Below are positions 9,603 to 27,379 of a stretch of 32,542 nt of DNA, one piece after another. How positions within the stretch are numbered: position 1 is the stretch's first letter; every line of letters starts with the position of its first letter. The notes under the pieces were generated by a model. The model searched no databases. It had not been told where the DNA came from and saw only the letters and a program-made list of their open reading frames with translations. Source of the stretch: a bacterium (GTDB taxonomy: Bacteria > Patescibacteriota > Minisyncoccia > Moranbacterales > GWC2-37-73); NCBI GenBank assembly GCA_003251635.1, contig QKEW01000016.1, forward strand, positions 1 through 32,542. Direction: 5' to 3'. The position numbers and the translations under genes were made by a program.

Positions 9603-10745
9603 CTAAAAAGCCTTTTCTAGTTTTTGCAGAACTTCTCGTAATTTTTCACCCTGCAAACAATAAGACAAACGCAAATGAGTGTCATAATTTTCTCCAAAAG
9701 AAATGCCTGGGGTGGTGGCTACCTGAACTTTTTCCAAAAAATAGGTCGCCAACTCTGTGGAAGTTTTCAACTTTTTGCTGCGCATAAAATCAGCAAAATC
9801 CGGAAAAATAAAAATTCCACCTTCAGAAGACGCAAAAGGAATCTGCATTTTTTCCAACCAAGCGTGAATAACTTGGCGCTGTTTGGTTAAATCCGGAAGT
9901 GCCGGAGTTTGCAAAGCAACCAAAGCTGCCGCATCCGAAATCGAACAAGGACAACCCAGATAGTTTTCCAAAAATTTTTCAATCACCCCAACAAGCTCTT
10001 TAGGTGCAATCACAAAACCAATCCGCCAGCCAGTCATGGCGTGAGATTTGGAAAGCGAGTTGATCACGATCACATCTTGGGAAAACCCCCGGAGCGTGAA
10101 ACCCTTCTCCGCACTAAACTGATTGTAACATTCGTCTGAAATGACCGTAATTTTATTTTCGCGGCAAAATTCCACGATTTTTTTCAATTCGTTTTTGTCA
10201 TAAACAGTTCCAGTTGGATTGTTAGGTGAATTTACTAACAAATATTTCTGCCCGGCAAAATCCGGATTTTCTTGATAAGAATTTTCAAAAGCGCTGCGCA
10301 AAGATTCCACAGTCATCTTAAAACCAGAGGGCTTAGTATCAATCAAAATTGTCTGGCCTCCGCAAGACTGAATGATTTGCAAAAATGGCGGATAGAAAGG
10401 CGCAGCCAAAAAAACCTGATCGCCTTCATTCAAAAGCGACCAAAAAACCGCGCCCAAAATCGGCTTAGCGCCGGAAGACACTGCCACATTTGCAGCTTCC
10501 GCTTGATATTTTTCAGCCAAAGCTTGGCGCAATTTCATGGAACCAGCCGCCGGATTATAATGCGTTTGATTTTTTTCAATTGCCTCAATGCCGGCTTTTT
10601 TAATAGCTTCGGGCGTATCATAGAAAGGTTCGCCCAAGCCCAGGGAAAAAACCTCAACACCTCGACCCTCCATTTCTTTGACTTTTTTGGAAAAAGCATA
10701 GAGCGGCGAAGAAACCAGAAAATCTGAACGCTTTGAAAAACGCAT
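9603..10745 (-). CDS. Class I/II PLP-dependent aminotransferase (aspartate-aminotransferase-like)
   Basis: The 380-residue fold-type I enzyme has a substrate loop near SLGLGEPFYDTP and HYNPAAGSMKLRQALAEKY. NSPNNPTGT carries Asn175/176, and VISDECYNQF has Asp204 and Tyr207 as PLP contacts. SLSKSHAMTGWRIGF has the Schiff-base Lys233 and Arg242, and a C-terminal LRLSYC motif carries the carboxylate-binding Arg. It matches bacterial AspB-type (class I gamma) aspartate aminotransferases, which interconvert oxaloacetate and aspartate, but aromatic or alanine specificity cannot be excluded. It is divergent from the MQO-like gene, with the leader/attenuator region between them. Confidence 0.9.
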   Translation of the reverse strand: MRFSKRSDFLVSSPLYAFSKKVKEMEGRGVEVFSLGLGEPFYDTPEAIKKAGIEAIEKNQTHYNPAAGSMKLRQALAEKYQAEAANVAVSSGAKPILGAVFWSLLNEGDQVFLAAPFYPPFLQIIQSCGGQTILIDTKPSGFKMTVESLRSAFENSYQENPDFAGQKYLLVNSPNNPTGTVYDKNELKKIVEFCRENKITVISDECYNQFSAEKGFTLRGFSQDVIVINSLSKSHAMTGWRIGFVIAPKELVGVIEKFLENYLGCPCSISDAAALVALQTPALPDLTKQRQVIHAWLEKMQIPFASSEGGIFIFPDFADFMRSKKLKTSTELATYFLEKVQVATTPGISFGENYDTHLRLSYCLQGEKLREVLQKLEKAF

Positions 10746-10812: not shown

Positions 10813-10840
10813 TGGACAGTTCGCTAATAAATGCTAAAAT
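10813..10840 (+). promoter_or_regulatory. Sigma70-type promoter for the 18-codon leader ORF
   Basis: TGGACA (10813-10818), a 16-bp spacer ending TGC, then TAAAAT (10835-10840) form a -35 plus extended -10. The ATG of the leader ORF lies 7 nt downstream, so the transcript should be leaderless. Confidence 0.65.
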
Positions 10841-10846
10841 CCATTC

Positions 10847-10903
10847 ATGCACAGCTTTGATCAAAAATTCAATCTTCTAAACAATGACGATGATCGCGAT
10901 TGA
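10847..10903 (+). CDS. Candidate leader peptide, 18 aa, Asn/Asp-rich
   Basis: This ORF is too short for the ORF track. It encodes MHSFDQKFNLLNNDDDRD and stops at TGA. The start codon is where transcription from the upstream promoter should begin. The last seven residues are NNDDDRD, and the Asp codons form the 5' arm of a 10-bp hairpin. An intrinsic terminator follows 37 nt after the stop, and the MQO-like gene lies beyond it. The peptide itself probably has no function. The alternative is that this is part of a non-coding small RNA. Confidence 0.45.
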   Translation: MHSFDQKFNLLNNDDDRD

Positions 10904-10968
10904 TTGTCGTCGGTTTAGCGCTTTGTCAAAAACGAATGCAAAAACCGACCAGACTGGTCGGTTTTTTG
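10886..10968 (+). promoter_or_regulatory. Candidate trp-type attenuator upstream of the MQO-like gene
   Basis: Four segments can pair in competing ways. Segment 1 (10886-10895, GACGATGATC) pairs with segment 2 (10902-10111-type arm at 10902-10911, GATTGTCGTC): 10 bp including two G-U. Segment 2 (10909-10916, GTCGGTTT) pairs with segment 3 (10942-10949, AAACCGAC): 8 bp. Segment 3 pairs with segment 4 in the terminator. Segment 1 covers the Asp codons of the leader ORF. A ribosome stalled there would free segment 2 to block the terminator. A ribosome reaching the TGA at 10901-10903 would cover segment 2 and allow termination. The pairings are read directly; the regulatory logic is inference. 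Confidence 0.5.
10940..10967 (+). terminator. Intrinsic terminator of the leader transcript
   Basis: CCGACCA-GAC-TGGTCGG is a 7-bp stem flanked by A and T runs and followed by TTTTTT. It ends the leader/sRNA transcript and is segment 3:4 of the proposed attenuator. Confidence 0.85.
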
Positions 10969-10998
10969 TTGAATGGATTGATCAATTCCAAATTTAAA

Positions 10999-11016
10999 AA
11001 TAATACGTATTATAAT
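10999..11016 (+). promoter_or_regulatory. Palindromic promoter element, copy 1 (MQO-like gene)
   Basis: AATAATACGTATTATAAT contains the 14-bp perfect palindrome ATAATACGTATTAT, and its last six bases are the -10 box TATAAT. The MQO-like ATG is 14 nt downstream, giving a leader of about 7 nt. There is no TTGACA-like -35. The trailing ACTTACCAA is shared with the copy at 22253. Confidence 0.65.
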
Positions 11017-11029
11017 ACTTACCAAAAAT

Positions 11030-12367
11030 ATGCCAGAAAAAAAAGCTAATGAATTTGAAGTCCTGATTTTGGGCGGCGGAATAACCGGCAGCGCCGTTTT
11101 TCACATCCTATCAAAATATACCAGCCTTAAATCAATCGGACTTTTGGAAAAACAATCCGAATTAGGCCAAATCAATTCCCACGCTAATAACAACAGCCAA
11201 ACTTTGCATTTTGGAGACATCGAATCAAATTATTCTCTGGAAAAAGCCCACAAAACCAAGCAGGCTTCGGAGATGGTCGTGACTTACTTAAAAAAACTGA
11301 CTGATAAAAATCAAACTATTTATTCCAAACAGCCCAAGATGCTGTTGGCGGTCGGTCAGACGGAAGTTGAAATTTTGGAAAAAAGATTTCAAGATTTTTC
11401 CAAACTTTTTCCAGATTTGAGAAAATTGGAATACTCTGAAATTTTTCGTCTGGAACCCAATTTAATCAAAGGGCGTGATCCGCAAGAAAAAATTTTGGCG
11501 CTTCGCAGCGAAAACGGTTTCGTGGTTGATTTTGGAAAACTGGCTCAAAAAATGGCCAGCGATGCTGATCCTCAAAATTCCAAAATTTTCCTCAATCAAG
11601 AGGTTTTAGACATTAAGAAAACATCCAGAGGTTTCCAAGTTATCACTAACAATGAAACATTCAACGCCCAGACCTTAGTCGTCTCAATGTGTTCCCAGAG
11701 TTTGTTTTTTGCCAAAAAATTGGGATATGGACACAACTTTTCCATTTTGCCAATCGGGGGAAATTTTTATGCCTGCCAAAATGAAATTCTGCGGGAAAAA
11801 GTCTATACTATGCAAAGTCCAAAAATGCCATTTGCCGGAGTTCATGGCGATCCGGTTTTAGGACGCCAAGTTGAAACTCGCTTTGGACCAACCGCCACTT
11901 TGACTTTTCTACTGGAGAGAAAAAACTGGAAAACTTTGCGCCAATTTTTCCAATCATCTTTTTCCAACTTTCAATCAGTCAGAGCCTTTTTGAGTGTCAT
12001 TTTTGAAAGAAAACTTTTCTTATTTTTGGCACAAAACCTGGCTTATGAAATTCCATTTCTGGGAAAATATTTCTATTTGAAACTCTGTCGTAAAATCGTG
12101 CCAACTCTCCAAATGAAAGATTTTTCCAAGGGTAAATTCAAGGCCGGAATCCGTCCGCAACTGATTGACAATCCGGAGAGAAAATTGGTTATGGGTGAAG
12201 CTGAAATTGTCGGCGATAACATCATTTTTCACATTTCCCCTTCACCTGGCGCCACCGTTTGTCTGCAAAACGGAGAAAAAACCGCCAAAAAAGTTTTAGG
12301 ATTTTTCGGCGATCAATTTTCTTTCAATCAAGAAAAATTTGAACAAGATTTTCCAATTGCTAAATAA
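11030..12367 (+). CDS. FAD-dependent oxidoreductase, malate:quinone oxidoreductase-like
   Basis: This is the only sizeable plus-strand gene. It encodes 445 residues with an N-terminal Rossmann FAD motif (VLILGGGITGSAVFHIL, about 11-27). SHANNNSQTLHFGD is in the place of the MQO Asn-Asn-Ala-Gly-Thr-Gly-His motif, TRFGPTATLTFLL follows, and a C-terminal FAD/substrate segment reads GEAEIVGDNIIFHISPSPGATVC. This order matches the MQO family (malate to oxaloacetate, electrons to quinone), although the NNAGTGH motif is altered. A related dehydrogenase with another substrate or acceptor is possible. The promoter is the palindromic element, translation is probably near-leaderless, and a terminator follows. 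The neighbouring aminotransferase could turn oxaloacetate into aspartate. Confidence 0.8.
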   Translation: MPEKKANEFEVLILGGGITGSAVFHILSKYTSLKSIGLLEKQSELGQINSHANNNSQTLHFGDIESNYSLEKAHKTKQASEMVVTYLKKLTDKNQTIYSKQPKMLLAVGQTEVEILEKRFQDFSKLFPDLRKLEYSEIFRLEPNLIKGRDPQEKILALRSENGFVVDFGKLAQKMASDADPQNSKIFLNQEVLDIKKTSRGFQVITNNETFNAQTLVVSMCSQSLFFAKKLGYGHNFSILPIGGNFYACQNEILREKVYTMQSPKMPFAGVHGDPVLGRQVETRFGPTATLTFLLERKNWKTLRQFFQSSFSNFQSVRAFLSVIFERKLFLFLAQNLAYEIPFLGKYFYLKLCRKIVPTLQMKDFSKGKFKAGIRPQLIDNPERKLVMGEAEIVGDNIIFHISPSPGATVCLQNGEKTAKKVLGFFGDQFSFNQEKFEQDFPIAK

Positions 12368-22172: not shown

Positions 22173-22252
22173 GCTATTTTGAAAAATTATTTGCTTATTA
22201 TTTCGAGTTTAGTACGTCATTTATTGGTAATAAATTGCAGGAATTGGTAAGT

Positions 22253-22270
22253 ATTATAATACGTATTATT
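22253..22270 (-). promoter_or_regulatory. Palindromic promoter element, copy 2 (anchored ferredoxin operon)
   Basis: The minus strand reads AATAATACGTATTATAAT and then ACTTACCAA, identical to copy 1 over 27 nt. The element lies in the gap after the Nudix gene. A second TTACCAAT occurs about 20 nt downstream in the leader. Confidence 0.65.
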
Positions 22271-26393: not shown

Positions 26394-26425
26394 AATTTAT
26401 CTAACAGGGTGAATTTTTGGTAATA

Positions 26426-26443
26426 ATTATAATACGTATTATT
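26426..26443 (-). promoter_or_regulatory. Palindromic promoter element, copy 4 (HD fragment)
   Basis: The minus strand reads AATAATACGTATTATAAT followed by TATTACCAAAAAT. The TATAAT ends 33 nt before the TTG of the HD fragment. Confidence 0.6.
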
Positions 26444-26535: not shown

Positions 26536-27351
26536 TCACCATTCCCGCCTGATAAACTTCAGCAAATATTTGATTTTTTCATCTTTGTCGCCAACTCCCC
26601 AATCACCTCTTTGCAGCATATCCCAGCCCAAAATTCCAATGGCTCGCAAAGCAAAGATCAGCGAAATTTCTGCCTGACCAAATTCAGCGCTGCATTTTTT
26701 CAAATTCCCTACGATTGCTTGAAAGTTTTTTTCGTCACTAAAACTTTTCAAGAAAATCCAATCCAACGAGCGTAAAAAGTCATAGCAATCCGGAACAGGA
26801 CTTGGGGTGAACCGCATTCCCAAAAGATAGAAAGTTTCTTGCTCATTTTGATTGGCGACGAAAACGTGATCGCCGATAACATTGCCATGAGTATAGCCAA
26901 AAAAATCCGCGCCCTTTTTGGCGATAAGTTTTTCAAACTCTTCGGCCAATATCAAGACCTCTTCATGTTGCAATAATCCCGCCTCAACAATCAACCCGCT
27001 CCACTTAAAAAAATTTCCAAAAAGTTTACGTTTTCCTGATTCCAAAAGATCCTCTGTCGATTGTTCATATTTTTCAAAATAACGACGGATGACTTTTTGA
27101 TAATCTTGGGCAATTTTCTGACTAATTTGAAAATAGCGCTCCGGATTTTTCTCGTAACTTTCAACTAAAAAATTTCCTGGGATTTTTTCCTTCAAGATCC
27201 AATTGTGACCGCTTTCCGTTGCTTGATAAAAATCCGAAGTGAAACAGATTTCTCCGCTTCGAAACATTTCCTGCACCAAAGGAACCAACGTGGCCTGCAA
27301 TTCATCAATGCCTTGATTTATTTTTTTATTTTGCAAATTTGCCTTATCCAT
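26536..27351 (-). CDS. Aminoglycoside-phosphotransferase-fold protein, probable pseudokinase
   Basis: The 271-residue protein has no TM segment. FGYTHGNVIGDHVFVANQ followed by FYLLGMRFTPSPVPDCYDFLRSLDWIFL matches the APH/choline-kinase C-lobe pattern HGDxxxxN...LIDW...PxxYDLxxxL. However, the catalytic Asp is Asn (HGN), the Mg-binding Asn is His and the DW/DFG Asp is Gly. If the assignment is right, it has lost phosphotransfer chemistry. Its ATG is 11 nt after the -10 of palindromic promoter copy 5. The fold call comes from the C-lobe only; the N-lobe is not recognisable. Confidence 0.5.
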   Translation of the reverse strand: MDKANLQNKKINQGIDELQATLVPLVQEMFRSGEICFTSDFYQATESGHNWILKEKIPGNFLVESYEKNPERYFQISQKIAQDYQKVIRRYFEKYEQSTEDLLESGKRKLFGNFFKWSGLIVEAGLLQHEEVLILAEEFEKLIAKKGADFFGYTHGNVIGDHVFVANQNEQETFYLLGMRFTPSPVPDCYDFLRSLDWIFLKSFSDEKNFQAIVGNLKKCSAEFGQAEISLIFALRAIGILGWDMLQRGDWGVGDKDEKIKYLLKFIRREW

Positions 27352-27361
27352 ATTGGTAATG

Positions 27362-27379
27362 ATTATAATACGTATTATT
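27362..27379 (-). promoter_or_regulatory. Palindromic promoter element, copy 5 (kinase-like gene)
   Basis: The minus strand reads AATAATACGTATTATAAT-CATTACCAAT and then ATG. The predicted leader is about 4 nt. Another extended -10 (TGC-TATATT) lies about 75-80 nt further upstream. Confidence 0.65.

Follow-up and report, generated by a model that had tools for sequence, protein, structure and literature searches.

The stretch of DNA analysed here in its full length of 32,542 nt (the window) belongs to a genome of Candidatus Moranbacteria (Patescibacteria/CPR; 0.9 Mb in 18 contigs). Its nearest relatives include Candidatus Moraniibacteriota bacterium UBA12142, Candidatus Moranbacteria bacterium GW2011_GWE2_36_40 and two Parcubacteria group bacteria, GW2011_GWC1_36_108 and GW2011_GWC1_45_14. 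The site of interest is the gap separating two divergent genes: that of an FAD-dependent 2-hydroxy-acid oxidoreductase on the plus strand, and that of an aminotransferase on the minus strand, which had been described as AspB-like from the sequence and was confirmed as an aspartate-aminotransferase-like member of class I/II. The gap holds a promoter, a short open reading frame, three RNA segments with alternative partners, an intrinsic terminator and one copy of a palindromic repeat (Table 1).

Table 1 Features in and around the gap between the aminotransferase and oxidoreductase genes
Feature	Position	Strand	Remarks
Class I/II aminotransferase, aspartate-aminotransferase-like	9603..10745	-	Divergent neighbour in the window; 3' of the oxidoreductase, same orientation, in L025
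Sigma-70-type promoter of the putative leader transcript, TGGACA-16 nt-TAAAAT, extended TG	10813..10840	+	Spacing to the mini-ORF conserved in L010-L013
Candidate leader-peptide ORF, 18 codons, MHSFDQKFNLLNNDDDRD-stop	10847..10903	+	Conserved mini-ORF in L010-L013
Putative control codons N N D D D R D (AAC AAT GAC GAT GAT CGC GAT)	10880..10900	+	
Segment 1 (UGACGAUGAUC), partner of segment 2 in the 1:2 hairpin	10885..10895	+	
Segment 2, with the antiterminator strand GUCGGUUU at 10909-10916	10902..10916	+	Strand invariant in five genomes
Intrinsic terminator 3:4, AAAAACCGACCA-GAC-TGGTCGGTTTTT and U-tract	10940..10967	+	Also terminator-like on the - strand
Segment 3 (AAACCGAC), common to antiterminator (2:3) and terminator (3:4)	10942..10949	+	
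Lineage-specific palindromic repeat, one copy (AATAATACGTATTATAATACTTACC) with TATAAT at its core; possible second promoter	10994..11024	+	
FAD-dependent 2-hydroxy-acid oxidoreductase (Mqo / L2HGDH superfamily), putatively controlled gene	11030..12367	+	

The gene order around the oxidoreductase differs between relatives. In the window and at loci L022 and L023, the aminotransferase and the POR genes are its divergent neighbours. At L025, which lies in the genome of the orthologous leader L013, the oxidoreductase gene is followed after about 40 nt by the aminotransferase gene and then by the POR subunit genes, all on one strand. No adjacent aminotransferase and no POR genes were found within the DNA stretch examined around the enzyme at L024. 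The co-directional genes behind the leader at L025:5001-11072 might form an operon under one attenuator.

The leader and its conservation

The promoter, the 18-codon ORF ending in NNDDDRD and the terminator of the original prediction were all recovered at the positions given in Table 1. By itself, the promoter match is not significant (6 found versus 5.4 expected in a 3-kb stretch), and its support comes from the conserved spacing to the mini-ORF rather than from the motif. The leader ATG follows 6 nt past the -10 element, which places its A at about +1 and makes the transcript apparently leaderless, as had also been proposed. For the run of Asn and Asp codons (6 of 7), the chance of occurrence is 3.3e-6 per position at a local N+D frequency of 0.089.

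We then compared the window with related genomes. A homologue of the FAD enzyme is encoded in 9 of the 96 genomes searched, including the host genome. The leader is present upstream of all five close orthologues, namely that of the window and those at L010, L011, L012 and L013 (53-54% identity). These represent five genomes from three genera of one family (f1), with L010-L012 in genus g4, L013 in g2 and the window in a third; the three congeneric leaders are nearly identical. The peptides read MNMHLTQITTLNNDDNCD in L010, MNMHFAQITTLNNDDNCD in L011, MNRYLTQITTLNNDDNCD in L012 and MQKYQICKNDNNDNDDSLTKRSVYFCG in L013, following the pattern MN..TLNNDDNCD in the first three and MQKYQICKNDNNDNDDS... 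in the last. The Asn/Asp run, NNDDDRD in the window, is NNDDNCD in L010-L012 and takes the rearranged form NDNNDNDD in L013, where all eight residues are Asn or Asp (chance 4e-9 per position). This run is the only part common to all five peptides, and a remainder that is not conserved is expected of a control peptide. The L013 promoter reads TTGACA-17-TAAATT, and in all five leaders the ATG lies 6-7 nt after the -10 element. In the four other orthologues, the mini-ORF with its Asn/Asp codons is kept along with the terminator and the alternative pairings, which was the comparison that the original prediction had proposed as its check.

Beyond these five loci, the leader was not found. It is missing upstream of more distant homologues with about 40-47% identity (a first set, upstream regions read by eye). 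A query with the single protein matched nothing, and an alignment-based scan of genome contigs gave 80 homologue loci; among the 53 of these scanned for N/D-rich short ORFs, two weak and unconvincing loci appeared besides the four orthologues. An order-wide pattern scan of 131 genomes gave many chance matches and, judged among the matches listed, the leader-type arrangement at the same five loci only. Across the class, 384 genomes were scanned for a T-run with an N/D run at a distance of 50-80 nt, and 116 of them matched, with control counts similar by eye; of 30 loci inspected there, four had short ORFs with N/D runs, none of them convincing as a leader. Searching at the DNA level with the leader yielded, outside the own genome, terminator-like matches only, as expected if the leader sequence has diverged. 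Conservation across three genera is the strongest evidence against a chance arrangement. Distant homologues at L014, L015 and L017 form a separate clade, in which the FAD enzyme gene directly follows a gene for a membrane protein that by eye looks DoxX-type, without a leader.

Alternative pairings and the position of the ribosome

In the window, the 1:2 helix comprises 11 bp (10885-10895 with 10902-10912) and is extended by 6 bp, slightly longer than the predicted 10-bp hairpin built from the Asp codons. The alternative 2:3 pairing was borne out at its predicted 8 bp, GUCGGUUU at 10909-10916 with AAACCGAC at 10942-10949, and the terminator hairpin (10940-10966) has a perfect 12-bp stem and a loop of 3, followed by the U-tract. 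The leader fold was far stronger than those of its shuffles (z = -4.0), none of 200 of which folded as strongly. A duplex matching 2:3 arose in 6 of 1000 dinucleotide-shuffled spacers for the window, in 26-42 of 1000 for L010-L012 and in 4 of 1000 for L013. At the Rfam gathering threshold, neither a T-box nor another known regulatory RNA family was recognised in the window, the sole match being a tRNA, and a T-box riboswitch was rejected on these grounds.

For the comparison of pairs, the segments were set by hand, as MAFFT had aligned the terminators wrongly. Standard pairs fill all 40 cells of the 2:3 helix (8 bp in five sequences). Segment 2 is always GUCGGUUU, and segment 3 occurs as AAACCGAC, AAAUCGAC, AGAUCGAC or AAGCUGGC, each change being accommodated by a G-U wobble. 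Two-sided exchanges between C-G and U-A occur in the terminator 3:4, namely at positions 4 and 5 and, for L011 and L012, additionally at position 9. In L010-L012, the seventh base of segment 3 is an A that pairs with U in 2:3 yet forms an A.C mismatch in 3:4, a sign that 2:3 itself is under selection. The g4 leaders differ from the window in the 1:2 stem, which is also coding, only by G-U/A-U and U-G/U-A changes. L013 has rebuilt 1:2 from another sequence, CUGACU:GGUCGG, located just 3' of its N/D run. Thus, of the covariation sought in all three pairings, compensatory changes were found in 3:4 and full retention in 2:3, but the variation in 1:2 and 2:3 consists of one-sided wobble changes only.

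To follow the leader during translation, we masked the RNA to a point 12 nt from the A site's first base, an assumed footprint, and folded the remainder at equilibrium, codon by codon. When codons 11-18 (L N N D D N C D) of L010-L012 occupied the A site, 2:3 formed 7.7-9.0 pairs before segment 4 was made, and 3:4 was limited to at most 2.9 pairs in the full leader; when the stop codon occupied it, 3:4 rose to 8.9 pairs. In the full-length stalled fold of L010, the terminator was mostly blocked by pairings other than 2:3, which itself accounted for only 0.1-5.6 pairs. In L013, 2:3 held about 15.5 pairs until the ribosome passed codon 17, upon which 3:4 formed, and 1:2 was lost once the last two Asp codons were in the A site; the ribosome-free fold of this leader is the antiterminator, not the terminator. 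Of the five, the window has the least clear predicted switch. Here, 2:3 dominated at codons 11-18 before segment 4 was made, and 3:4 won at equilibrium for every ribosome position, so that a switch would have to be kinetic. The folding model therefore predicts a switch in the four relatives and, in the window, only a kinetic one.

The aspartate pool and the FAD enzyme

With the asnS model, no asparaginyl-tRNA synthetase was found over the cut-off in the five genomes, which gave sub-cut-off matches only. Four of the best-matching proteins, two from G000 and one each from G013 and G011, were classified, and all were AspRS or LysRS; the best matches of G001 and G003 were left out of this single-protein classification. 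GatB was over its cut-off in all five genomes. The lack of a detectable AsnRS together with the presence of GatB suggests that the amidotransferase probably generates Asn-tRNA from Asp-tRNA, so that, on the basis of gene content, both codon types probably read the aspartate pool. A protein with an Asn_synthase domain was detected in G000 and G003 and not in the other three of the five genomes. As a side observation, the AspRS of G000 and G013 (about 485 aa) align to the model of bacterial AspRS in two stretches apart from each other, and that of G011 (596 aa) does so over its full length; an insertion domain appears to be missing in some members.

The FAD enzyme had been described as MQO-like. 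This holds for the broad Pfam family Mqo (score 85, cut-off 27), besides which it matches DAO, but the protein lies closer to L-2-hydroxyglutarate oxidase/dehydrogenase than to Mqo proper. It stays under every NCBIfam cut-off, LhgO being best with 124.5 versus 299, and Mqo proper was rejected as its class at 61.5 bits against the curated TIGR01320 cut-off of 549.95. Its sole PDB match at 1e-10 is Drosophila L2HGDH. The residues S56, H60, Y259, H272 and R375 are invariant in the five orthologues and, in an alignment read by eye, correspond to S88, H92, Y289, H302 and R393 of the Drosophila enzyme (dmL2HGDH; PMC10726252), which has no malate activity. As far as can be judged from such residues, the active site suits a 2-hydroxy dicarboxylate substrate, with malate and 2-hydroxyglutarate not told apart. 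Neither an enzyme of the LDH/MDH fold (PF02866) nor a PEP carboxylase was found in the five genomes. Active-site residues and gene context suggest that the neighbouring aminotransferase probably receives oxaloacetate, or another 2-oxo acid, from this enzyme, and oxaloacetate for aspartate synthesis would be the most economical reading.

A candidate aspartate attenuator among known leader systems

We consider it very likely that the leader is a ribosome-mediated transcription attenuator of the trp/his type, which senses aspartate supply through its Asn and Asp codons. The anatomy, conservation, pairings and gene context form its basis, and from these we infer translation, termination, read-through, the signal and the substrate. 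The attenuation mechanism of the original prediction thereby gains in silico support, as gene and leader occur together in all five orthologues, the pairings are kept and distant homologues lack the leader. In the proposed sequence of events, the transcript would begin at or next to the leader ATG, and the 1:2 hairpin would form first. A ribosome that reads past the N/D run to the stop codon would cover segment 2, allowing 3:4 to pair and transcription to stop. When Asp-tRNA or Asn-tRNA is scarce, the ribosome would be slowed at the run, opening 1:2 and leaving segment 2 free to form 2:3, and transcription would continue into the oxidoreductase gene. With Asn-tRNA made from Asp-tRNA, both codon types would report aspartate, and the aminotransferase next to the enzyme would be provided by it with oxaloacetate (or another 2-oxo acid).

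Alternatively, the short transcript could be an independent small RNA or small-protein gene, with the oxidoreductase driven by a promoter within the repeat at about 10994-11024 and the alternative pairing being incidental. We regard this as improbable, even though the terminator prevails in the equilibrium fold of the window wherever the ribosome is placed and the repeat copy, with its TATAAT core, sits just 5' of the ATG. This core is the second promoter of the original prediction: the element does exist in the gap before the ATG, but it belongs to a palindromic repeat with 17 copies in the own genome (up to 3 mismatches; loci L166 and L168-L183 compared), in which GGTAAG or AATACG half-sites surround TATTATAATA. 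The window holds copies at 11002-11023, 22246-22267, 26419-26440 and 27355-27376. Several copies in the genome lie near terminators, and in one case 4 nt lie between the end of the copy and the gene start at 27351; since the copies are mostly intergenic, occur in both orientations and mostly do not lie just 5' of start codons, the repeat was rejected as a typical promoter. Among the 19 family members it is specific to this genome, bar one match with 3 mismatches in one of the 18 others, and it is absent upstream of the other four orthologues, which retain the leader. The U-tract is separated from the gene ATG by about 20 nt in L011 and 23 nt in L013, which leaves little room for a separate promoter; such a promoter would overlap the terminator. 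An independent transcript is also at odds with the retention of 2:3 in all five leaders and with a peptide that is not conserved outside the N/D run. In the window, the repeat copy may nevertheless act as a bypass promoter for the FAD enzyme, and the repeat as such may be a mobile or operator-like element.

It is less probable still that the attenuator is real and responds to a general slowing of translation, or to another amino acid or factor, instead of Asp/Asn supply. Leaders that sense a general slowdown are known, such as those of the ermC type (PMC2965389), and Leu occupies position 11 in all leaders but one. Against this, the N/D run is the sole element shared by all peptides and persists in L013 despite its rearranged leader, and aspartate sensing fits both the linkage to the aminotransferase and the lack of a detectable AsnRS. 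That the Asn/Asp codons are a mere by-product of selection for the GACGAU..AUCGUC hairpin in an untranslated ORF appears very improbable. The Asp codons do lie within the 1:2 stem in four genomes, but the longer run of L013 (8/8) is mostly outside its own stem and the leaderless spacing of the ATG is kept in all five.

It seems fairly likely that a lineage of Patescibacteria gauges its aspartate with a leaderless Asn/Asp leader peptide, whose mixed codons read one pool by way of Asn-tRNA made from Asp-tRNA. If true, this would be the first leader-peptide attenuator of Asn/Asp specificity known to us, and evidence that coupled transcription and translation regulate amino-acid supply in reduced, mostly uncultured cells. 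It would also hint at the function of an uncharacterised FAD enzyme that is widespread, namely aspartate or oxaloacetate supply, and would yield a rule by which the signal could be predicted wherever Asn-tRNA comes from Asp-tRNA. In the open-access papers searched, we found no case of an Asp/Asn leader peptide or of a leader-peptide attenuator in CPR/Patescibacteria.

Leader-peptide attenuation is best known from Proteobacteria, and T-box riboswitches for Asn/Asp genes, which sense tRNA charging and control a terminator, occur mainly in Firmicutes. The proposed attenuator would resemble the latter in sensing the charging of Asn/Asp tRNA at a terminator; unlike them, it uses an ORF, whose translation is predicted, and has no Rfam T-box match. 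The classical design is that of the leader peptides of the trp, his, leu, thr and ilv operons (PMC1183508), leader-peptide attenuation has also been reported in Actinobacteria (PMC1262725), and a histidine leader peptide is described in bacilli (PMC2965389). With the amino-acid operons, the present leader shares a short ORF with control codons, the segments 1:2, 2:3 and 3:4 and an intrinsic terminator, and its downstream gene may likewise act in the metabolism of the sensed amino acid. It differs in its Asn and Asp control codons, its host from the Patescibacteria, the FAD 2-hydroxy-acid oxidoreductase under its putative control and the ribosome-free fold of L013, which is the antiterminator. 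A leaderless leader peptide is known from trpL of Sinorhizobium meliloti (PMC10117765), and as in rnTrpL the transcript here appears to begin with the AUG of the leader ORF; that RNA, to which we claim no sequence relation, has Trp codons and belongs to an alphaproteobacterial trp operon. The design itself is thus known, and what would be new here are the amino-acid specificity, the phylum, the leaderless form and the use of Asn and Asp codons to read one pool.
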